Assembly (NCBI GenBank): GCA_019638285.1
Contig: JAHBUB010000024.1
Coordinates: forward strand, 1 to 53,110
Direction of reading: 5' to 3'
Length of the DNA stretch: 53,110 nt
Origin: Cyclobacteriaceae bacterium
GTDB taxonomy: Bacteria; Bacteroidota; Bacteroidia; Cytophagales; Cyclobacteriaceae
Shown here: in pieces, positions 13,932-25,891 of the stretch
How positions within the stretch are numbered: position 1 is the stretch's first letter
Layout of the letters: each line of letters opens with the position of its first letter
The notes under the pieces: generated by a model
Databases searched by the model: none
What the model saw: the letters and a program-made list of their open reading frames with translations, nothing else
Told to the model about the DNA's origin: nothing
Position numbers and translations under genes: made by a program

Positions 13932-13948
13932 AAAAAAGGGCAAACCGA
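13932..13948 (-). terminator. Intrinsic terminator at the SRP RNA 3' end
   Basis: The closing helix of the RNA (TTTGCCC on the transcript) runs directly into six T residues. The long terminal stem of the RNA itself therefore serves as the terminator hairpin. Confidence 0.75.
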
Positions 13949-14032
13949 ACATCGCACCGCTACAACTACCTACCCTTGCTACCTTCCGGTCCTGGGGGAG
14001 TTCAGCAGGAGCTGGTCGTGCCGATTTGCCGG
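13932..14032 (-). ncRNA. ffs: Signal recognition particle RNA, small bacterial (4.5S) type
   Basis: Read on the minus strand, the region contains the SRP RNA apical domain, including the CAGGACCGGAAGGTAGCAAG core (GGAA tetraloop plus asymmetric loop). Flanking sequences pair: GGCAAA near the 5' end with TTTGCC near the 3' end. The transcript should start near 14031 and end in TTTTTT at 13937-13932, about 100 bases. The RNA forms the signal recognition particle with Ffh and targets nascent membrane proteins to FtsY and the translocon. The assignment rests on the conserved loop; exact ends are estimated from the promoter and the T-run. Confidence 0.94.
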
Positions 14033-14035
14033 CTG

Positions 14036-14066
14036 CAAAGGTAAGCGATAGGTATTAAACCACAAA
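14036..14066 (-). promoter_or_regulatory. Consensus promoter of the SRP RNA gene
   Basis: On the minus strand TTTG (14066-14063) and TACCTTTG (14043-14036) are separated by exactly 19 bases, a perfect match to the Bacteroidota primary sigma consensus TTTG-N19-TAnnTTTG. It predicts a start near 14031, agreeing with the folded 5' end of the RNA. Confidence 0.9.
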
Positions 14067-17162: not shown

Positions 17163-17193
17163 TTTGTAATCATGGCTCCCTTTAGTATTATTG
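17163..17193 (+). promoter_or_regulatory. Candidate promoter for thx and the trp leader
   Basis: TTTG (17163-17166) is followed after exactly 19 bases by TATTATTG (17186-17193), seven of eight matches to TAnnTTTG. It predicts a start near 17198, about 15 bases before the thx ATG. No comparable promoter was seen between thx and the trp leader, so one transcript may cover both. Confidence 0.6.
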
Positions 17194-17212
17194 CCCCACG
17201 AAATATCCATTT

Positions 17213-17398
17213 ATGGGAAGAGGAGATAAAAAAACGAAGAAAGGTAAAATCTGGAAGGGTTCTTACGGCAACTCCAGGAAAAGGGCGGTGAACAAAGTGA
17301 AGCATACACCAGCAGCGAAGACCGCTGAAAAGGTAGAAGCCAAGCCCAAAGTAAAAAAAGCAGTAAAAAAGAAAGCGAAACCCGCAGATAACCAATGA
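17213..17398 (+). CDS. 30S ribosomal protein THX
   Basis: This is a 61-residue, extremely basic protein opening MGRGDKKTKKGKIWKGSYG, the signature of the THX family. The family binds in the head of the 30S subunit and stabilises 16S rRNA. The C-terminal half is a Lys/Ala/Pro-rich tail, typical of Bacteroidota versions. The TGA stop overlaps the ATG of the tryptophan-rich leader peptide (ATGA at 17395-17398). That places thx at the head of the trp transcript and suggests ribosomes ending thx may restart on the leader. The family assignment is strong; the link to trp control is inference from the overlap and the shared upstream promoter. Confidence 0.92.
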   Translation: MGRGDKKTKKGKIWKGSYGNSRKRAVNKVKHTPAAKTAEKVEAKPKVKKAVKKKAKPADNQ

Positions 17399-17469
17399 GA
17401 TCAAATAACAACATAGCATGGTGGTGGCATTTCCGAAAATCGGGGATTGGCTGCACGTGCTATAGTTAG
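17395..17469 (+). CDS. trpL: trp operon leader peptide (24 codons, Trp-Trp-Trp)
   Basis: The frame runs ATG at 17395 to TAG at 17467-17469. Codons 9-11 (17419-17427) are three consecutive TGG (Trp) codons in a peptide beginning MRSNNNIAWWWHF. It is followed by a strong terminator hairpin just before trpE, the classical layout of a leader peptide that senses charged tRNA-Trp by ribosome stalling. Trp is the rarest amino acid, so three in a row in 24 codons immediately upstream of trpE is unlikely by chance. The start codon overlaps the thx stop. The peptide probably has no function of its own. An overlapping 15-codon frame at 17418-17465 has only one Trp and is judged incidental. Confidence 0.85.
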   Translation: MRSNNNIAWWWHFRKSGIGCTCYS

Positions 17470-17507
17470 AAATTAATATAGCATTTATGGATAGAAGCCC
17501 GCCCCGA
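17431..17507 (+). promoter_or_regulatory. Antiterminator and anti-antiterminator segments of the trp attenuator
   Basis: TCGGGG (17440-17445) and GGCT (17449-17452) can pair with CCCCGA (17502-17507) and AGCC (17496-17499), ten pairs in total, sequestering the 5' arm of the terminator. Inside this antiterminator a 7-bp helix TGCTATA/TATAGCA forms (17458-17464 with 17477-17483). The same TCGGGG can instead pair with TTCCGA at 17431-17436 (four Watson-Crick plus two G-U pairs), which would free the terminator. A ribosome stalled on the Trp codons would cover 17431-17436 and favour the antiterminator. One reaching the stop codon would block it. Pairings were found by eye. Confidence 0.75.
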
Positions 17508-17535
17508 GTCATCGGGGCGGGCTTCTTGTTTTTTA
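17495..17535 (+). terminator. Attenuator terminator hairpin before trpE
   Basis: AAGCCCGCCCCGA (17495-17507) and TCGGGGCGGGCTT (17512-17524) form a perfect 13-bp stem with a 4-base loop. A T-rich run follows (CTTGTTTTTTAT, 17525-17536). It ends about 14 bases before the trpE ATG at 17550 and downstream of the leader peptide stop. It therefore acts as the conditional terminator of the trp operon and not merely as the end of thx. Confidence 0.92.
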
Positions 17536-17549
17536 TAGACTTTAAGAAA

Positions 17550-18944
17550 ATGGACTTTAAAATTTATACACGATCAAAGAAACTGCTGGCGGATACGCTT
17601 ACACCGGTCAATATCTATTTGAAATTGAGAGATGTGTATGCAGGCAGCTTTTTACTGGAGAGTTCCGACTATCATGGGCAGGAGAACAGCCTTTCGTTTA
17701 TCTGTTGCGATCCCATTGCTTCTTTTCAGTTGGATGACGACAAGCTGACCACGAAATACCCGGACGGGAGCACGCATGTGGAAGTATTAACCACTAAAGG
17801 AGATGTGCTCACACAATTGGATCAGTTCAGAAATTCATTTCATGTCCAAAATGTGGATGCGAAATATACGTCCGGGGGTCTCTTTGGGTACATGGCCTAT
17901 GATGCGGTTCGTTATTTTGAAAACATAGATATCACTATTACCAATAAGCAGATTCCGGACATACTCTACAAGGTATTTCGCTATGTGATTGTGATCAATC
18001 ACTTTTCCAATGAACTGATACTTTTTGAAAATACAACCGCGCCTGAAACTCCGTCAGGATTGGAAGATTTACAAAAAATTATCAATAGCAATCGATTTAG
18101 TACTTTCTCCTTTTCGTCCAACTCAAGTGAGGTTTCCAATGTAACGGATGAAGCGTATTTGAAGATGGTCGCTTCCGGAATATCACATTGCCAGCGGGGA
18201 GATATATTTCAAATTGTGTTGTCCAGAAGGTTCACTTCTCAATTTCAGGGAGATGAATTCAATGTGTACCGGGCATTGCGGTCCATCAACCCATCGCCCT
18301 ACTTATTTTATTTTGACTTTGGAAGCTTTAAAATATTTGGCTCCTCACCAGAAGCACAAATTCAAATCAAAGCCAAAGAAGCAGCGATCTTTCCCATTGC
18401 AGGTACCTTTAAGAGAACGGGCGATTACAAAGAAGATGCGAAACTTGCCGCTCTATTGGCGAATGATGAAAAGGAAAACGCAGAACATGTGATGCTGGTG
18501 GACCTTGCACGCAATGACATGAGCAGGGATGCTGGAGATGTGAAGGTGGAAGTGTTTAAAGAAATCCAATACTACAGCCATGTGATTCACCTGGTATCCA
18601 AAGTGGTGGGGAAAATTGGAGAATCTTCAACATTGAAAGTGGCAACCAATACTTTCCCTGCAGGCACTTTATCGGGTGCACCCAAGCACAACGCCATGAC
18701 GCTCATCAATCAATATGAAAACAGCAATCGGGGTTTTTATGGGGGAGCCATTGGATTTCTTGGATTCAATGGGGACTTCAATCATGCCATTATGATTCGG
18801 ACCTTTTTAAGCAAATCAAACGAACTGATTACGCAGGCAGGAGCAGGTATTGTTGCAAAATCAGTTCCTGAAAATGAATTACAGGAAGTGAATAACAAAT
18901 TGGAAGCATTAAGAAAGGCCATTAGAATGGCAGAAGAAATATGA
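17550..18944 (+). CDS. trpE: Anthranilate synthase component I
   Basis: The enzyme converts chorismate plus ammonia (delivered by TrpG) to anthranilate and pyruvate, the first committed step of tryptophan synthesis. The 464-residue product has the chorismate-binding core: DIFQIVLSRRF, FGSSPEAQ, IFPIAGTFKRTG, DLARNDMSRD, FPAGTLSGAPK and GGAIGFLGFNGD. The N-terminal LLESSD motif corresponds to the tryptophan feedback site, so end-product inhibition is likely. Start set at ATG 17550: the longer frame from 17487 would begin inside the terminator stem and give an atypical N-terminus. It overlaps trpG by four bases (ATGA), fitting a 1:1 complex. Controlled by the upstream attenuator. Confidence 0.97.
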   Translation: MDFKIYTRSKKLLADTLTPVNIYLKLRDVYAGSFLLESSDYHGQENSLSFICCDPIASFQLDDDKLTTKYPDGSTHVEVLTTKGDVLTQLDQFRNSFHVQNVDAKYTSGGLFGYMAYDAVRYFENIDITITNKQIPDILYKVFRYVIVINHFSNELILFENTTAPETPSGLEDLQKIINSNRFSTFSFSSNSSEVSNVTDEAYLKMVASGISHCQRGDIFQIVLSRRFTSQFQGDEFNVYRALRSINPSPYLFYFDFGSFKIFGSSPEAQIQIKAKEAAIFPIAGTFKRTGDYKEDAKLAALLANDEKENAEHVMLVDLARNDMSRDAGDVKVEVFKEIQYYSHVIHLVSKVVGKIGESSTLKVATNTFPAGTLSGAPKHNAMTLINQYENSNRGFYGGAIGFLGFNGDFNHAIMIRTFLSKSNELITQAGAGIVAKSVPENELQEVNNKLEALRKAIRMAEEI

Positions 18945-19519
18945 AAAAAGAGATGAAAGTGTTGGTGCTGGATAATTACGACTCGTTTACATACAACCTG
19001 GTGTACCTTCTCAAGGAATTGGAATTGGACACCACTGTGGTGCGCAACGATAAGATAGCGCTGGAGGAGATAAATGTGTTTGATAAAATTTTACTTTCCC
19101 CGGGGCCGGGAGTGCCGGATGAAGCGGGAATAATGAAACAACTGATAAGTGAGTACGGCCCCTATAAAAGTATCCTCGGTGTGTGTCTCGGTCACCAGGC
19201 GATTGCCGAGGTGTACAATGCTTCATTGTACAATATGGAGGAAGTGTTGCACGGGGTGACCAGCAAAACATTTTTTCCCGATAAGCAGGAGATACTTTTT
19301 AAAGACATTCCGGAAGAGATTGAAGTATGCCACTATCATTCGTGGTCGGTAGATCCGAAAAGTGTAAATGGGGAATTAAAAGTGACTGCCATCAACGAGA
19401 ATGGCTTGGTGATGGCCATTGCACATACAAGGTATGATGTGAAGGGGGTGCAGTTTCATCCGGAGTCAATTTTGACACAGCATGGAAAGCAGATGATTGC
19501 TAATTGGATCAATAATTAA
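18941..19519 (+). CDS. trpG: Anthranilate synthase component II, glutamine amidotransferase
   Basis: The 192-residue class I glutaminase supplies ammonia to TrpE. Motifs: DNYDSFTYNL at the start, oxyanion-strand SPGPGVPDEAG, nucleophile C82 in GVCLGHQ, and H173/E175 in VQFHPES completing the triad. It is a free-standing subunit, not fused to TrpE or TrpD. The ATG overlaps the trpE stop. An in-frame ATG at 18953 is an alternative start just before VLVLDNYDSF. It could also serve aminodeoxychorismate synthase (PabA role), as in many bacteria that have one such subunit; that cannot be judged from this window. Confidence 0.96.
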   Translation: MKKEMKVLVLDNYDSFTYNLVYLLKELELDTTVVRNDKIALEEINVFDKILLSPGPGVPDEAGIMKQLISEYGPYKSILGVCLGHQAIAEVYNASLYNMEEVLHGVTSKTFFPDKQEILFKDIPEEIEVCHYHSWSVDPKSVNGELKVTAINENGLVMAIAHTRYDVKGVQFHPESILTQHGKQMIANWINN

Positions 19520-19534
19520 AATGATGGTGAAAGA

Positions 19535-20518
19535 ATGAAAGAGATATTGAATGAATTGATAGGTTATCGCTCACTGGACAAGTCAACCGCCAGGCAGGTG
19601 CTGATGGAACTGGCATCTGGGAAATACAATCCAAGTCAGATGAGTGCTTTTATAACCGTGTACATGATGCGTGCCATTACCATCGATGAATTGGAAGGTT
19701 TTAGAGATGCGATGTTGGAGTTGTGTGTACCAGTAGAAACAGACCTGCCAGTGATCGATGTATGCGGTACGGGGGGTGATGGGAAGAACACTTTTAACAT
19801 CTCCACGCTTTCGTCATTTGTGGTTGCGGCTGCTGGCCAACCTGTCGCCAAGCATGGCAATTACGGAGTGTCTTCAGTAAGTGGTTCTTCCAATGTAATG
19901 GAGCATTTCGGATATCAATTTTCAAATGACCTTTCGAAACTAAAGGATGAATTGGAAAGAGCGAACATTTTCTTTATGCACGCACCCTTGTTTCATCCGG
20001 CCATGAAGAACATTGCGCCCATCAGAAAGGAACTGGGTGTAAAAACATTTTTTAATATGCTAGGCCCTATCGTAAATCCGGCAAAGCCTCAAAGACAATT
20101 GGTGGGAGTATTCAGCCTGGAGCTGGCACGACAGTATGGATACCTCTATCAACAGGGTAAAAAAGATTATGTGATTTTACATGACCTGAATGGGTATGAT
20201 GAGATATCCCTCACTGGACCTTTTAAGGTGTTTACTAATTGGGGGGAGGATCAACTCGAACCTTCAGATTTGGGCGTGCCTCAAATTAAGCCTGCTGATA
20301 TTGCAGGCGGGGATACCGTAGAGGAGGCTGCTGAAATATTTATGAAAATTCTGGAAGGCAATGGTACCGAAGCACAAAATGCAGTGGTAATGGCAAATGC
20401 GGGGATGGCCTTGTATTGTGGTCATAAAGGAGAGGGAATTACAAAGGCGGTGAAGAAAGCGGAAGAAGCCCTGATGTCAGGTGCGGCATTACAAACATTC
20501 AAAAAGATGATTGGTTGA
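19535..20518 (+). CDS. trpD: Anthranilate phosphoribosyltransferase
   Basis: The enzyme transfers the phosphoribosyl group from PRPP to anthranilate, the second step of the pathway. The 327-residue protein has the PRPP/magnesium-binding glycine loop DVCGTGGDGKNTFNIST (residues ~76-92). It also has KHGNYGVSSVSGSSNVMEHFG, typical of TrpD, and the segment NMLGPIVNPAKPQRQLVGVF. It begins 15 bases after trpG. The stop TGA is followed two bases later by the trpC ATG, indicating tight coupling. Confidence 0.96.
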   Translation: MKEILNELIGYRSLDKSTARQVLMELASGKYNPSQMSAFITVYMMRAITIDELEGFRDAMLELCVPVETDLPVIDVCGTGGDGKNTFNISTLSSFVVAAAGQPVAKHGNYGVSSVSGSSNVMEHFGYQFSNDLSKLKDELERANIFFMHAPLFHPAMKNIAPIRKELGVKTFFNMLGPIVNPAKPQRQLVGVFSLELARQYGYLYQQGKKDYVILHDLNGYDEISLTGPFKVFTNWGEDQLEPSDLGVPQIKPADIAGGDTVEEAAEIFMKILEGNGTEAQNAVVMANAGMALYCGHKGEGITKAVKKAEEALMSGAALQTFKKMIG

Positions 20519-20520
20519 CC

Positions 20521-21342
20521 ATGGATATATTAAGCAAGATTGTAAAGCACAAGGAAAAAGAAGTAGCGGAAAGAAGGGACCTGTATCCCCTAAAACTGCT
20601 GGAACGGAGCATCTATTTTGAAACGCCATCTATTTCCCTGAAGCAATACATCAAAAGGAAGGACAAGTCGGGTGTAATAGCGGAGATCAAAAGAAAATCA
20701 CCCTCCAAAGGAGATATCAATCCTCATGTTTCGGTAGAACGAACTTCAATAGAGTACATGCAGGCGGGAGCATCGGCACTTTCTGTACTTACGGACAATA
20801 CTTTCTTTGGTGGAAGCAGCGATGACCTGACTACTGCGCGGAAATTTAATTTTTGCCCCATCCTTCGAAAGGATTTTGTAATTGACGAGTATCAACTCAT
20901 TGAAGCCAAATCAATGGGGGCCGATGTGGTGTTGCTTATTGCAGCCATTTTGGATCCACCAAAGTTGAAGCGCCTTTGTGCCACTGCGCAATCCTTACAA
21001 ATGGAAGTGCTATTGGAAGTACATGATGAGGAGGAGTTAAAAAACAATCTGGAAGCATTGCCGGATGTGATTGGTGTAAATAACAGAAACCTAAAAACTT
21101 TTGAGGTAAGCACGGAGTTGAGCAAGCAATTGATTCAGTGTATTCCCAATGAGTTTGTTAAAATATCTGAGAGTGGAATTGATACACCCGAGGTGGCAGC
21201 AGATTTGCGCGCATGTGGCTTTGACGGGTTTCTTATTGGCGAGTTGTTCATGCGATCAGGGAGGCCAGAACGTGCTGCCATGGAATTTATCAAAGAGTTG
21301 AATCGATTGGAAAAGAAAACCAAAACAGATGCAACCCATTAA
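20521..21342 (+). CDS. trpC: Indole-3-glycerol-phosphate synthase
   Basis: This TIM-barrel enzyme performs ring closure and decarboxylation of carboxyphenylaminodeoxyribulose phosphate to indole-3-glycerol phosphate. The 273-residue product carries VIAEIKRKSPSKGDI (catalytic Lys and phosphate loop), ILRKDFVIDEYQ, EVHDEEEL, GVNNRNLKTFEV and KISESGI. Start set at ATG 20521 and not at the TTG two codons earlier, which would overlap the trpD stop. It is a separate polypeptide, not the TrpC-TrpF fusion of enterobacteria. The last 14 bases overlap the start of trpF. Confidence 0.96.
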   Translation: MDILSKIVKHKEKEVAERRDLYPLKLLERSIYFETPSISLKQYIKRKDKSGVIAEIKRKSPSKGDINPHVSVERTSIEYMQAGASALSVLTDNTFFGGSSDDLTTARKFNFCPILRKDFVIDEYQLIEAKSMGADVVLLIAAILDPPKLKRLCATAQSLQMEVLLEVHDEEELKNNLEALPDVIGVNNRNLKTFEVSTELSKQLIQCIPNEFVKISESGIDTPEVAADLRACGFDGFLIGELFMRSGRPERAAMEFIKELNRLEKKTKTDATH

Positions 21343-21955
21343 ACTAAAAGTCTGTGGAATGCGGGATAGCAGCAACATACGGGAGGTGGCATCGGTCCAC
21401 CCTGATTTTATGGGATTTATATTTTATCAAAAATCACCACGGTATGTGGGATTGAATTTTAAAATCCCGGATAATCTGGATGTCAGTATTCAAAGAGTGG
21501 GGGTGTTTGTGAACGAGAAAGTGAAAACCATCATCGAATTGGTTACGAAACATTCTTTGGATTTTGTGCAGCTTCATGGAGATGAATCGTTAGAAGAATG
21601 CCAAGAACTAAAGAGAAATGGGATTAAGACAATGAAGGTTTTTTCTATCGATAATGCTTTTGATTTTGAAGGGGTAGCCCACTACCAACCTTACGCAGAC
21701 TATGTCCTATTTGATACATTGGGTAAAGCGCGGGGTGGAAATGGGGTTCCGTTTGATTGGCACTTACTTAAAAAGTACAAAGGCGATGTTCCTTTCTTAC
21801 TAAGTGGAGGTATTGACCCAGAAAATATTAGCCAAGTGAAAAAATTAAATCACGATCAACTATTTGCCATTGATGTAAACAGTGGAGTTGAAAGTGCGCC
21901 TGGTGTTAAAGACCTATCCAAACTCAATAGACTAATTAAAAACTTTAAAACATAG
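21329..21955 (+). CDS. trpF: Phosphoribosylanthranilate isomerase
   Basis: This 208-residue TIM-barrel enzyme catalyses the Amadori rearrangement of phosphoribosylanthranilate, the step between TrpD and TrpC. Motifs: KVCGM with catalytic C9, GFIFYQKSPRYV, VQLHGDES, DTLGKARGGNGVPFDW, LLSGGI and the catalytic-Asp segment AIDVNSGVE. It overlaps trpC by 14 bases and its TAG directly abuts the trpB ATG, so translation through trpC-F-B is probably coupled. Confidence 0.96.
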   Translation: MQPIKLKVCGMRDSSNIREVASVHPDFMGFIFYQKSPRYVGLNFKIPDNLDVSIQRVGVFVNEKVKTIIELVTKHSLDFVQLHGDESLEECQELKRNGIKTMKVFSIDNAFDFEGVAHYQPYADYVLFDTLGKARGGNGVPFDWHLLKKYKGDVPFLLSGGIDPENISQVKKLNHDQLFAIDVNSGVESAPGVKDLSKLNRLIKNFKT

Positions 21956-23134
21956 ATGATGCAGGTAGATGAACGAGGGTATTACGGTCAGTTTGGAGGA
22001 GCATTTATTCCCGAAATGTTATATCCCAATGTAGAGGAGTTGAGAACCACCTACCGCTCTATCATGGAGCGTCAATCCTTTAAAAAGGAATTTGATGGGT
22101 TGCTTAAAACTTTTGTAGGGAGGCCCACGCCACTTTACCTGGCTTCCAGACTTTCTGAGAAATACAAAGCAAAGGTGTATTTAAAAAGAGAAGACCTCTG
22201 CCATACAGGTGCGCATAAAGTAAATAACACCGTGGGGCAAATCATTTTGGCAAAGCACCTGGGTAAAAGCAAAATCATTGCGGAAACTGGAGCAGGCCAG
22301 CATGGAGTAGCTACGGCTACGGTATGCGCACTGATGGGGATGGAGTGCATCGTGTACATGGGCAAACTGGACATGGAGAGACAAAAACCAAACGTAGAGC
22401 GAATGAAAATCCTTGGGGCTGCAGTAATTCCTTCATTGAGTGGCAGCATGACATTGAAAGATGCTACCAACGAAGCCATGCGTCATTGGATCAGCCATCC
22501 CGAAGACACGCATTATATTATCGGGTCGGTGGTGGGCCCTCATCCTTATCCGGACATGGTAGCCCGATTTCAGTCCGTCATTAGTAAGGAGATAAGAAGT
22601 CAACTGACCGAAGAGCAGGGCAATCCCTATCCCGATTATGTGATCGCCTGTGTGGGAGGAGGAAGTAATGCAGCGGGTGCCTTTTATCATTTCGTGGAAG
22701 AGCAACATGTGAACTTGATTGGCGTGGAAGCAGCAGGCAAAGGCGTAGACACTGGTGAATCTGCTGCTACCACTGTTCTTGGAAAACCGGGTGTGCTTCA
22801 TGGAAGCAAAACATTGTTGATGCAAACAGCGGACGGACAAGTGATTGAGCCATACTCTATTTCTGCAGGGCTAGATTATCCGGGCATTGGCCCGATGCAT
22901 GCGCATTTGTTTGATGTTGGGCGTGTACGTTTTTTAAATGCGACCGATGAGGAAGCCATGAATGCGGGGATAGCCCTGAGCCGTCTGGAAGGGATTATTC
23001 CGGCCATTGAATCGGCCCATGCCGTGGCAGCACTGGATAAACTGACGTTTGATACAGAGGATGTGGTGGTAATTAATCTCAGTGGAAGGGGGGATAAAGA
23101 TTTGGAAACGTATATTCGCTGGGGAAAATACTAG
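21956..23134 (+). CDS. trpB: Tryptophan synthase beta subunit
   Basis: This PLP enzyme condenses indole with serine to give tryptophan. The 392-residue protein is of the TrpB1 class: PLP lysine K88 in [21 protein letters not shown], and the cofactor phosphate loop VGGGSNAAG. The ending [11 protein letters not shown] is typical. It starts immediately after the trpF stop; a double ATG gives two possible starts one codon apart. Unusually, the partner trpA does not follow directly: a lipoprotein gene lies between them. Confidence 0.97.
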
Positions 23135-23150
23135 GTATTAAATAAATAAA

Positions 23151-24059
23151 ATGAAAACACATTACATACTTCTTCTTGCTATTATAACCAGTATAGCGGG
23201 TTGTGCCCCTAAAGAGAATAAAATCGATTTAAAAGCCTATCAAGATGAGATCAATGCCTGGCATGAAGATCGGGTAGAAAAAGAATTGGTGAGTGACCAG
23301 GGTTGGCTCAACCTGGCAGGGCTCTATTGGTTAAATGAAGGCTTCAATACTTTTGGAAGTGATCCCTCCAATGAGGTGGTGTTTCCGGAAGGAAAAATAG
23401 CACCGAATGCAGGAACGTTTGTGGTGCAGGGGGGTAAAGTGACGATGGAGGTAGCGAAAGGTGTGGAGATACTAAAAGATTCAGTACCGGTCACAAACGA
23501 AGTGATTCACATTCCTGACTCGGCTTTCTATCCAGTGATGAGTTACGGCACACTCCAATGGGTAATCATTGATCGATCAGGGAAATTGGGTGTTAGACTT
23601 CGCGACCTCAACAATGATGCGGTGAAGAATTTTAAGGGAGTGGAACGCTATCCCATCGACCCCAAATGGAGAGTGGAAGCAAGATTTGAAAAATACGAAC
23701 CGATCAAACATATTGAGATCACCAATATCCTGGGACAAACATATCAGTCGCCTTGTCCCGGAGCATTGGTATTTACTATAGATGATGTTGAATATAGGTT
23801 GGATGCGGTTGATGATGGTACCGAAGGGGAGTACTACATACTCTTTGGCGACAAGACCAATGAAACAGAAACCTATCCTTCGGGGCGATACATGTATGTG
23901 AAATACCCCGATGAAGAAGGCAAAGTGATTGTGGATTTTAACAAAGGTTATAACCCACCTTGTGCCTTCACCAAATTTGCGACCTGCCCGCTACCACCAA
24001 AACAAAACGGTTTGAATTTGGCCATTACAGCGGGAGAAAAGAATTACGGCCATCATTAA
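23151..24059 (+). CDS. DUF1684-family lipoprotein inside the trp operon
   Basis: The 302-residue protein has a lipoprotein signal (LLLAIITSIAGC) and is therefore exported and anchored. The DUF1684 hallmark is near the C-terminus: SGRYMYVKYP, then VDFNKGYNPPCAFTKFATCP with two Cys residues, then LPPKQNGLNLAITAGEK. The first half contains DQGWLNLAGLYWL, also conserved in the family. Biochemical function is not established to my knowledge. It sits between trpB and trpA on the same strand with gaps of 16 and 22 bases, so it is cotranscribed. A direct role in cytoplasmic tryptophan synthesis is unlikely because it is exported. The conserved Asn-Pro-Pro-Cys and Cys-Pro could suggest a metal or redox site, but this is speculative. 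Confidence 0.88.
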   Translation: MKTHYILLLAIITSIAGCAPKENKIDLKAYQDEINAWHEDRVEKELVSDQGWLNLAGLYWLNEGFNTFGSDPSNEVVFPEGKIAPNAGTFVVQGGKVTMEVAKGVEILKDSVPVTNEVIHIPDSAFYPVMSYGTLQWVIIDRSGKLGVRLRDLNNDAVKNFKGVERYPIDPKWRVEARFEKYEPIKHIEITNILGQTYQSPCPGALVFTIDDVEYRLDAVDDGTEGEYYILFGDKTNETETYPSGRYMYVKYPDEEGKVIVDFNKGYNPPCAFTKFATCPLPPKQNGLNLAITAGEKNYGHH

Positions 24060-24081
24060 CGAAAGACACAGAGCAAGAACC

Positions 24082-24879
24082 ATGGAAGTAATAGATCAAA
24101 AAGAGAATAGAATCAATGCGCTTTTTAAGAAAAACAAAAAAGGATTGTTGTCCGTCTACTACACAGCAGGCTTTCCAATGCGAGACGACACAGTGAGAAT
24201 AGGAAAATTGTTGGAAGCGAGTGGTGCAGATATATTAGAAATAGGAGTTCCTTTCTCCGACCCGGTTGCTGACGGATCTGTTATTCAGGCGAGCAACAAA
24301 GCTGCGTTGGACAATGGGATGACGTTACGTTTGTTGTTGGATCAGGTGAGTGAGCTGAGAAACCGTGTAAAAGCCCCCATCATTTTGATGGGCTATTTTA
24401 ATCCCATCTTTCAGTTTGGTGTGAAGGCATTTTGTGAAGCGGCAGCGGCAGCCGGAGTAGATGGATTGATTATCCCCGATTTGCCATTGCTGGAGTACCA
24501 GGAAATGTACAAAGCCACCTTTGAGGCAAATGGATTGCAAAACATTTTTTTGATATCGCCTACTACTTCTGAAGAACGCATCAGGACAATAGACAGCGTG
24601 TCCAACGGATTTATTTATGCAGTATCGTCTTCGTCCACCACGGGTGCAAAAAAAGATTTCAGCAAAGACCAGCGCAGCTACTTTGAAAGATTGCAAAAGA
24701 TGAAATTAAAAAACCCATTGCTCATTGGTTTTGGCATTTCTAATCGCGAAGCTTTTACCGCTGCATGCAAGTACAGTGCCGGAGCGATTGTAGGGAGTGC
24801 ATTCATTTCCATGTTGAAGAAAAGTGACAACATGGAAGAGGATATTCCTGAATTTGTAAACGCACTTAAGAACAGTTAA
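24082..24879 (+). CDS. trpA: Tryptophan synthase alpha subunit
   Basis: The subunit splits indole-3-glycerol phosphate into indole and glyceraldehyde 3-phosphate and channels indole to TrpB. The 265-residue TIM barrel has catalytic E53 and D64, eleven residues apart in ILEIGVPFSDPVADG as in the enterobacterial enzyme. It also has LIIPDLPLLEY, LISPTTSEERI, YAVSSSSTTG and phosphate-loop segments GFGIS and GAIVGSAF. It follows the DUF1684 gene and is one base upstream of the DAHP synthase gene. Confidence 0.96.
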   Translation: MEVIDQKENRINALFKKNKKGLLSVYYTAGFPMRDDTVRIGKLLEASGADILEIGVPFSDPVADGSVIQASNKAALDNGMTLRLLLDQVSELRNRVKAPIILMGYFNPIFQFGVKAFCEAAAAAGVDGLIIPDLPLLEYQEMYKATFEANGLQNIFLISPTTSEERIRTIDSVSNGFIYAVSSSSTTGAKKDFSKDQRSYFERLQKMKLKNPLLIGFGISNREAFTAACKYSAGAIVGSAFISMLKKSDNMEEDIPEFVNALKNS

Positions 24880-24880
24880 T

Positions 24881-25891
24881 ATGCTTATTCAGTTAAATCA
24901 ATCCATTTCAATAGAGGAAAAGGAAAAGATAGAGGGAGTAGTAGCTGCTTTGGGGTATAAGACCACGCCCGTGAAAACGCAGGTAGGAGAATACGTGATC
25001 GGAATTGGAAAGAAGGATTTTGATATTCGTCAGATAGGCAGGCTTCCGGGTATTACCGATATACACCGTGTGTCGGACGATTACAAGTTGGTATCCAGAA
25101 AATGGAAAGTAAAGCGCACGGTAATTGATTTGGGGGATGGAGTAGAGATCGGCAATGGGTCATTGTCCATCATGGCCGGGCCTTGTTCTATTGAGTCGGA
25201 AGAACAAATAGAAGCTACGATAGCTCATCTGATTGAAAATAAGGTATCAATCATGCGAGGCGGTGTATTCAAGCCACGCAGTTCGCCTTATGCCTTCCGT
25301 GGGTTGGGAGCCGAAGGATTGAAGCTTTGGGCATCGATGGCACGGGCTGCTGGTATTAAAATCATCAGCGAGGTGATGCAGGTAAGTCAGGTGGAAGAGA
25401 TGTACGACTATGTAGATGTATTTCAAGTAGGCGCACGTAATACACAAAATTTTAATTTGCTGGATGAACTGGGGCACATCGATAAACCCGTGATGATCAA
25501 ACGAGGTATCTCAGGTACACTGGAAGAGTTGTTGTCTTCTGCTGAATATGTGTTCAGTGGAGGCAACGAAAGGCTTATCCTTTGTGAACGCGGTATACGT
25601 ACCTATGAAAAAGCGAGCCGCAACACCATGGATGTAAACGCCATTCCCATATTGAAAGAGAAAACCCATTTACCGGTTATTGCCGACCCATCGCATGGTG
25701 TAGGCTTGCGCCAATATGTGGAGCCGATTGCACTGGCGAGTATCATGGCCGGTGCCGATGGGATTATCTATGAGATCCACCAGCAACCTGAAAAAGCGTT
25801 TAGCGATGCTCAGCAAACCCTCGATTTCAGCGAGTCGCAGCGCTTGGTAGAAAGGGCCCGAAAGGTATTTGAGTTGAGGGAAAATTTCTAA
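24881..25891 (+). CDS. aroF: 3-deoxy-7-phosphoheptulonate (DAHP) synthase, type I-beta
   Basis: The enzyme condenses phosphoenolpyruvate and erythrose 4-phosphate, the entry step to chorismate. The 336-residue protein has an N-terminal ~70-residue ferredoxin-like domain as in the Thermotoga-type enzyme, where it binds an aromatic amino acid for feedback control. The catalytic barrel has IMAGPCSIES, RGGVFKPRSSPYAF, QVGARNTQNFNLL, KPVMIKRG, LCERGIRTYE and VIADPSHGVG. Its place at the end of the trp operon means attenuation would adjust supply of the common precursor together with the Trp branch. The symbol aroF is used generically. Confidence 0.94.
   Translation: MLIQLNQSISIEEKEKIEGVVAALGYKTTPVKTQVGEYVIGIGKKDFDIRQIGRLPGITDIHRVSDDYKLVSRKWKVKRTVIDLGDGVEIGNGSLSIMAGPCSIESEEQIEATIAHLIENKVSIMRGGVFKPRSSPYAFRGLGAEGLKLWASMARAAGIKIISEVMQVSQVEEMYDYVDVFQVGARNTQNFNLLDELGHIDKPVMIKRGISGTLEELLSSAEYVFSGGNERLILCERGIRTYEKASRNTMDVNAIPILKEKTHLPVIADPSHGVGLRQYVEPIALASIMAGADGIIYEIHQQPEKAFSDAQQTLDFSESQRLVERARKVFELRENF

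Follow-up and report, generated by a model that had tools for sequence, protein, structure and literature searches.

A predicted tryptophan attenuator whose leader peptide starts at the stop codon of thx, a ribosomal protein gene, in a Cyclobacteriaceae bacterium

The trp operon of a Cyclobacteriaceae bacterium is preceded by a short open reading frame, trpL, with three consecutive Trp codons, and the start codon of trpL overlaps the stop codon of thx, which encodes 30S ribosomal protein Thx. From comparison with relatives, the leader is very likely a ribosome-mediated attenuator, and thx and the leader are likely to share a transcript. We hold with good confidence to the model as a whole, in which a transcript from the thx promoter is subject to ribosome-mediated attenuation by Trp, at a terminator that is shared with thx. 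This class of attenuator was already known; the new part is its fusion to thx.

The window (the whole 53,110-nucleotide stretch of contig JAHBUB010000024.1 that was analysed) contains the features listed here. Comparing sequences gave us the leader ORF, the control codons, the terminator, the competing and covarying pairings, the position of the putative promoter, and the thx-trpL junction.

17163..17193, + strand: predicted promoter, with TTTG (17163-17166), a 19-nt spacer, and TATTATTG (17186-17193); Bacteroidota consensus with one mismatch
17213..17398, + strand: thx, 30S ribosomal protein Thx, 61 amino acids (PF17070, 32.2 bits versus a cut-off of 29.7)
17395..17469, + strand: trpL, the Trp leader peptide, 24 codons; its ATG overlaps the thx stop codon as ATGA
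17413..17463, + strand: 1:2 hairpin, with strand 1 at 17413-17436 and strand 2 at 17440-17463 (-24.2 kcal/mol; covariation in a 44-sequence alignment)
17419..17427, + strand: control codons, three consecutive Trp (TGG)
17440..17452, + strand: antiterminator part of strand 2 (TCGGGG at 17440-17445 and GGCT at 17449-17452), which can pair with 17496-17507 (swap test, 136 loci)
17493..17526, + strand: terminator hairpin 3:4, 15 bp (17493-17507 with 17512-17526), with loop GTCA at 17508-17511 (-33.1 kcal/mol)
17527..17534, + strand: terminator T-run TGTTTTTT, the tail of the 3:4 hairpin
17550..18944, + strand: trpE, anthranilate synthase I (PF00425 and PF04715; homology begins at the ATG at 17550)
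18941..25891, + strand: rest of the apparent operon, namely a glutamine amidotransferase (trpG-like), trpD, trpC, trpF, trpB, a DUF1684 gene, trpA, and DAHP synthase
13935..14037, - strand: small SRP RNA (RF04183, 75.1 bits), the sole Rfam family above its cut-off in the window

Within the apparent operon, Pfam matches back 18941-19519, 23151-24059 and 24881-25891, and the names trpD, trpC, trpF, trpB and trpA were given by eye. The DUF1684 gene (23151-24059) lies between the trpB-like and trpA-like genes. T-boxes, riboswitches, and other RNA families were also tried as identities for the leader and were dropped: above cut-off, Rfam yields only the small SRP RNA.

From these features we infer Trp-dependent read-through of a shared transcript, with reinitiation at trpL. 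A single promoter upstream of thx would drive thx, trpL and the attenuator, and read-through would give the trp operon. If Trp-tRNA is plentiful, the leader would be fully translated, all or the inner part of the 1:2 hairpin would re-form, and the 3:4 terminator would end transcription after thx. If Trp-tRNA is scarce, the ribosome would stall on the three Trp codons and mask strand 1; strand 2 would then be free to pair with strand 3, no terminator would form, and RNA polymerase would enter trpE. The attenuator's terminator would also set where the thx mRNA ends at its 3' side, and ribosomes fresh from termination on thx would probably go on to translate trpL.

To compile trpE upstream regions, we scanned genome contigs for TrpE, which gave 591 loci, and retained the 80 best. 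In the window's own family, TrpE matches were found in 188 of 196 genomes, and we added 30 loci and 60 stretches from the matches listed, mostly for new genera. With duplicates removed and the window included, there were 151 distinct loci, of which 149 had at least 250 nt upstream of trpE. A Trp-rich short ORF (containing WW or WxW, within 480 nt upstream of trpE) is present in 146 of these 149 regions, versus 3/149 on the reverse strand and 7/135 further upstream; these counts include close relatives and the cases are not independent. An ORF with WWW is present in 122/149 regions, versus 0/149 on the reverse strand and 0/135 further upstream. The three loci without a Trp-rich short ORF are L035, L058 and L071. 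Between the leader and trpE, 145 of the 146 leader loci have a hairpin and T-run; the sole leader without a terminator, L067, is probably a false ORF. We also built a model (R1) from the window's clade and searched 296 genomes of the phylum, which gave five matches, four of them in the window's family (the window's genome among them), but with its strict filters and rough E-values this search is no measure of the frequency of trp leaders.

The survey also turned up variant arrangements. Six loci (L024, L037, L114, L119, L145 and L160) have tandem Trp-rich leader ORFs, and in all six the distal one has its own terminator before the proximal one; these are candidate tandem trp attenuators. In L042, L046 and L047, the leader terminator ends 127-201 nt 5' of trpE, and other inverted repeats are visible there by eye.

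The competing pairings are also conserved. In an alignment of 44 sequences from the window's clade, 86.8% of the 771 cells of the 1:2 stem are paired, and 10 of the 18 pairs have changed on both sides. The covariation score for this stem was 0.337, versus 0.219 (sd 0.010) for shuffled controls and at most 0.131 for slid controls, where one control ignores relatedness and the tested structure was derived by folding members of the alignment. RNAalifold recovers 11 of the 1:2 pairs unprompted. The Trp codons sit in strand 1, and the inner part of the hairpin covaries strongly even though it falls within the leader ORF.

For the antiterminator, we searched 18-50 nt beyond the first Trp codon, and in 134 of 145 loci the best strand-2 helix begins at 20-33 nt. 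Strand 2 fits the terminator's 5' arm and loop in forms that vary, such as TGAACAGC/GCTGTTCA, GATCGG/CCGATC, or TTGAATCGG/CCGATTCAA. Shuffle tests of single sequences are weak for this pairing (at most 5/100 shuffles were as good in only 30/145 loci), so we used swap tests across loci. A locus's own strand 3 beats swapped partners for strand 2: in 136 of the 145 loci, 0 of 2000 permutations were as good. (The other nine, with terminators of over 45 nt, were left out of this test and of the ribosome-mask model described below.) By class, permutations were as good in 0/2000 for the window's type (19 loci), 3/2000 for another class (58 loci), and 0/2000 for the others (59 loci). Similarly, the longest 2:3 helix scores at least 7 in 75/145 loci with their own partner, versus a mean of 33.7 loci if partners are swapped and 7.9 if strand 2 is shuffled. 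We also noticed that in 58/136 loci the terminator's 5' arm and loop retain GTTCA, which is expected if the loop joins the antiterminator pairing.

Covariation upstream of trpE, which the first-pass annotation of this DNA had proposed as a check, is found in relatives for both the 1:2 stem and the 2:3 pairing. That annotation had also named leaders without Trp codons, or without the competing pairing, as grounds for rejecting ribosome-mediated trp attenuation. Instead, leaders in 146/149 loci, terminators in 145/146, and the covarying pairings favour an attenuator, and since relatives keep the Trp codons, the terminator, and the competing pairings, ribosome-mediated attenuation is the best reading.

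In the window itself, the frame at 17395-17469 (+) has 24 codons and its product is MRSNNNIAWWWHFRKSGIGCTCYS, followed by a stop codon. The first-pass annotation had described this frame and its three TGG codons in a row at 17419-17427, and it placed TTCCGA (17431-17436) and TCGGGG (17440-17445) correctly. It also claimed that TCGGGG can pair with the 5' arm of the terminator, and this pairing is possible: the partner is CCCCGA (17502-17507), and GGCT (17449-17452) can lengthen the helix by pairing with AGCC (17496-17499). The hairpin and T-run that it reported before trpE are there, but the stem has 15 bp rather than 13. Folding of the leader, another check it had proposed, gives -60.6 kcal/mol for the 156-nt segment (z = -7.4; as low in 0/200 shuffles), and the inner part of the 1:2 hairpin has -5.0 kcal/mol. 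Taken alone, two other features of the window are within chance: the strand 2:3 pairing is equalled in 18/100 shuffles, and a generic scan found one terminator versus a shuffled mean of 0.9. It is the comparative evidence, namely the excess of Trp-rich ORFs and of WWW over the reverse strand, that puts the attenuator beyond chance. Elsewhere in the window's genome there is no convincing second copy of the leader (the next best has an E-value of 5.25).

The overlap of the thx stop codon and the trpL start codon in the window was absent from the first-pass annotation. In 42 of the 146 leader loci, which we call coupled, the distance between the thx stop codon and the trpL ATG is -4 to +25 nt. 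(Coupled loci were defined by a distance of -10 to +25 nt; they are related and do not represent 42 independent cases.) In 12 further loci, thx is 37-197 nt from the leader. In the other 92 loci, thx was not found within an upstream scope of at least 1100 nt (40 loci), 300-1100 nt (46 loci), or under 300 nt (6 loci). The thx at 17213-17398 is the only thx match in the window's genome, although in other genomes some thx genes escape this search. According to passages of one study (PMC3353972), Thx is found in all examined Bacteroidetes but one, and in most species its gene is apart from ribosomal genes. In a literature search that covered passages of open-licence papers, we found no report of thx-trpL linkage.

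In a TrpE tree of 105 rows, built by a quick method, one group of 45 (SH-aLRT support 99) contains each of the 41 coupled rows, and the coupled label changes 5 times on the tree versus 32.4 times if shuffled. (The tree leaves out one coupled locus, L127, as too short.) The group's four remaining rows are L003 and L015, which lack upstream sequence, along with L022 and L004. In L022, the frame of thx is broken in the MAG and the locus was counted among the 12; by eye, thx ends 3 nt before the leader starts. L004 clusters with L003 and the window; among relatives for which there is upstream sequence, it is the one nearest to the window. In L004, the promoter lies directly before trpL, with TTTG-N19-TATTATTG as in the window's thx promoter, and there is no thx between. 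Upstream, the Lys-rich tail of an ORF that is possibly thx ends 170 nt before the leader, at the contig's end, and the L004 genome has a thx match on a different contig from the trp leader.

Attenuation requires that the leader be translated at the right moment, and Bacteroidota initiate translation without strong Shine-Dalgarno signals. At the leader start, an SD-like 5-mer is present in 1/42 coupled loci and 0/92 other loci. Coupling of trpL translation to thx is a plausible inference. A leader start on the thx stop codon would bring the ribosome close behind RNA polymerase, and transcription of trp would follow that of thx. In 18/42 coupled loci, including the window, thx itself contains a Trp codon, so severe starvation could stop ribosomes from reaching trpL. 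The relatives, including the decoupled L004, offer a set for testing how translation of the leader is secured.

We also considered that the hairpin might be a plain intergenic terminator for thx, that the Trp-rich ORF might be there by chance, and that the trp genes might be expressed from elsewhere. Terminator-like sites are indeed common (one found in the window, 0.9 expected). However, a chance ORF seems inconsistent with 146/149 loci versus 3/149 on the reverse strand, the alternative pairings covary, and the 92 loci without a nearby thx retain the leader and the terminator (L067 alone lacks a terminator), so we give this explanation next to no credence. It also seems very improbable that the terminator is controlled by something other than a ribosome, such as a T-box, a TRAP-like protein, or a riboswitch. 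These systems, too, place a terminator ahead of trp genes, but the window has no T-box or riboswitch at Rfam's gathering score, and the conserved Trp codons are inside strand 1 of a covarying hairpin.

Another possibility is that the attenuator is driven by its own promoter, within or just before thx, in which case the proximity of thx would be accidental and trpL would initiate independently. The Bacteroidota promoter consensus is given as TTTG / TAnnTTTG in a passage of PMC7366714. In 47 of the 92 loci without a linked thx (shuffled mean 1.0), the motif TTTG-N18-20-TAnnnTTG, which is close to this consensus, occurs no more than 150 nt upstream of the leader, and it is directly upstream of trpL in L004 as well. 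Of the 12 loci whose thx is 37-197 nt from the leader, two have the motif before thx and two have it between thx and the leader. In several genomes of the family outside the coupled set, thx is kilobases upstream of trpE (about 2.5 kb in G016 and 5 kb in G007), so the thx-trp neighbourhood is probably older than the thx-trpL coupling. And as Shine-Dalgarno sequences are lacking at the starts, a nearby stop codon is unnecessary for initiation. However, in the coupled loci the motif lies 47-62 nt upstream of thx in 40/42 (shuffled mean 0.4; L008 and L093 lack it) and between the thx ATG and trpE in 0/42; the motif was fixed after viewing the coupled loci, so that 40/42 is partly circular, while 0/42 and 47/92 are not. 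An accidental proximity also fits poorly with a junction of -4 to +25 nt in 42 loci, although these were grouped by a distance of -10 to +25 nt. Overall, we think that a separate promoter for the attenuator is unlikely. With the promoter before thx and none from thx to trpE, the attenuator probably doubles as the thx terminator. The first-pass annotation had proposed looking for a short transcript of about 320 bases; we predict a close value, a terminated transcript of about 335 nt that encodes Thx (assuming that it starts about 7 nt past the motif).

Our proposal can be taken further. In one clade, the only thx found in the window's genome would be read into the attenuator, only ribosomes finishing thx would translate trpL, and Trp synthesis would equal thx expression gated by Trp-tRNA; we think that this stronger form could equally well prove right or wrong. 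If true, an operon for amino acid synthesis would be linked to the production of ribosomes with no regulatory protein involved.

In a simple ribosome-mask folding model, a stall at the first Trp codon gives an antiterminator probability above 0.5 in 39/40 coupled and 87/96 other loci. The value for the stall is above that for a ribosome at the stop codon in 37/40 coupled and 85/96 other loci, and below it in 1 and 5. Among coupled loci, the antiterminator is above 0.5 at the stop in 15/40 and without a ribosome in 13/40. In the window, its probability is 0.69 with no ribosome, 1.00 with a stalled ribosome, and 0.98 with a ribosome at the stop; more broadly, it exceeds 0.5 at the stop in 13/20 loci with the window's type of strand 2. 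Relatives most commonly have a strand 2 that starts at the leader's stop codon; the window's lies inside the ORF, so that TCGGGG is left uncovered by a ribosome paused at the stop. The window's strand 2 is blocked only while the A site lies roughly 15-21 nt beyond where the first Trp codon starts. The claim that the leader follows the logic of the E. coli attenuator is close for the commonest form in relatives, but for the window itself, with strand 2 inside the ORF, the model is not decisive and does not show release at the stop. Release in the window would rest on kinetics, with the inner hairpin forming behind the ribosome before strand 3 is made, and this is a weak point of our proposal.

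A trp leader attenuator class has already been described in Bacteroidota: Bacteroid-trp (RF01692), a cis-regulatory element of Bacteroidetes (in passages of Weinberg et al. 2010, PMC2864571), which Rfam titles "Bacteroidete tryptophan peptide leader RNA". A passage of a 2019 paper (PMC6414381) discusses Bacteroid-trp for the trp operon of F. psychrophilum. The window has the layout of RF01692, with a Trp-rich short ORF before trp genes in Bacteroidota and the Trp codons in a hairpin, and the alignment of the RF01692 model to locus L059 similarly has the ATG and the run of TGG codons, with the Trp codons inside a hairpin. But in the window, RF01692 has no match at its gathering score (49 bits), nor at an E-value of up to 10 over 17200-17650. 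Among 35 relatives that we scanned, RF01692 is above its cut-off in 5, namely 5/20 (the Flavobacteriaceae ones) and 0/15 others, with weak matches in three of those 15 (L119, twice; L144; and L172). Also unlike the window, no thx was found within 3 kb upstream in its five Flavobacteriaceae loci. With 5/35 relatives matched, the Rfam model misses much of the trp leader that is present in 146/149 sampled loci.

The E. coli trp attenuator has two Trp codons and its own promoter. Its family (RF00513, Trp_leader) resembles the window in having a leader peptide, strands 1-4, and a terminator before trpE. It aligns to the window over the full model with 27.2 bits (E = 0.0017 in a 451-nt search), which is below its cut-off of 41, and weakly to 7 of the 15 other relatives; and in the window, strand 2 lies within the leader ORF. 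Another E. coli system, rplT-pheM-pheST, is like the window in that a leader-peptide attenuator adjoins a ribosomal protein gene. pheM controls a tRNA synthetase, and we know of no start-stop overlap in rplT-pheM. Unlike in the window, Phe is sensed, by pheM, and there is an intergenic region between rplT and pheM, which is tabulated in a passage of PMC5371410. The window's leader shares with the mechanistic class the control codons for the product amino acid, an intrinsic terminator before the first structural gene, and conserved exclusive pairings (1:2 by covariation, 2:3 by swap tests, and 3:4 by presence in 145/146 loci). It is an attenuator of known type by function, and it is outside RF01692 and RF00513 by score.
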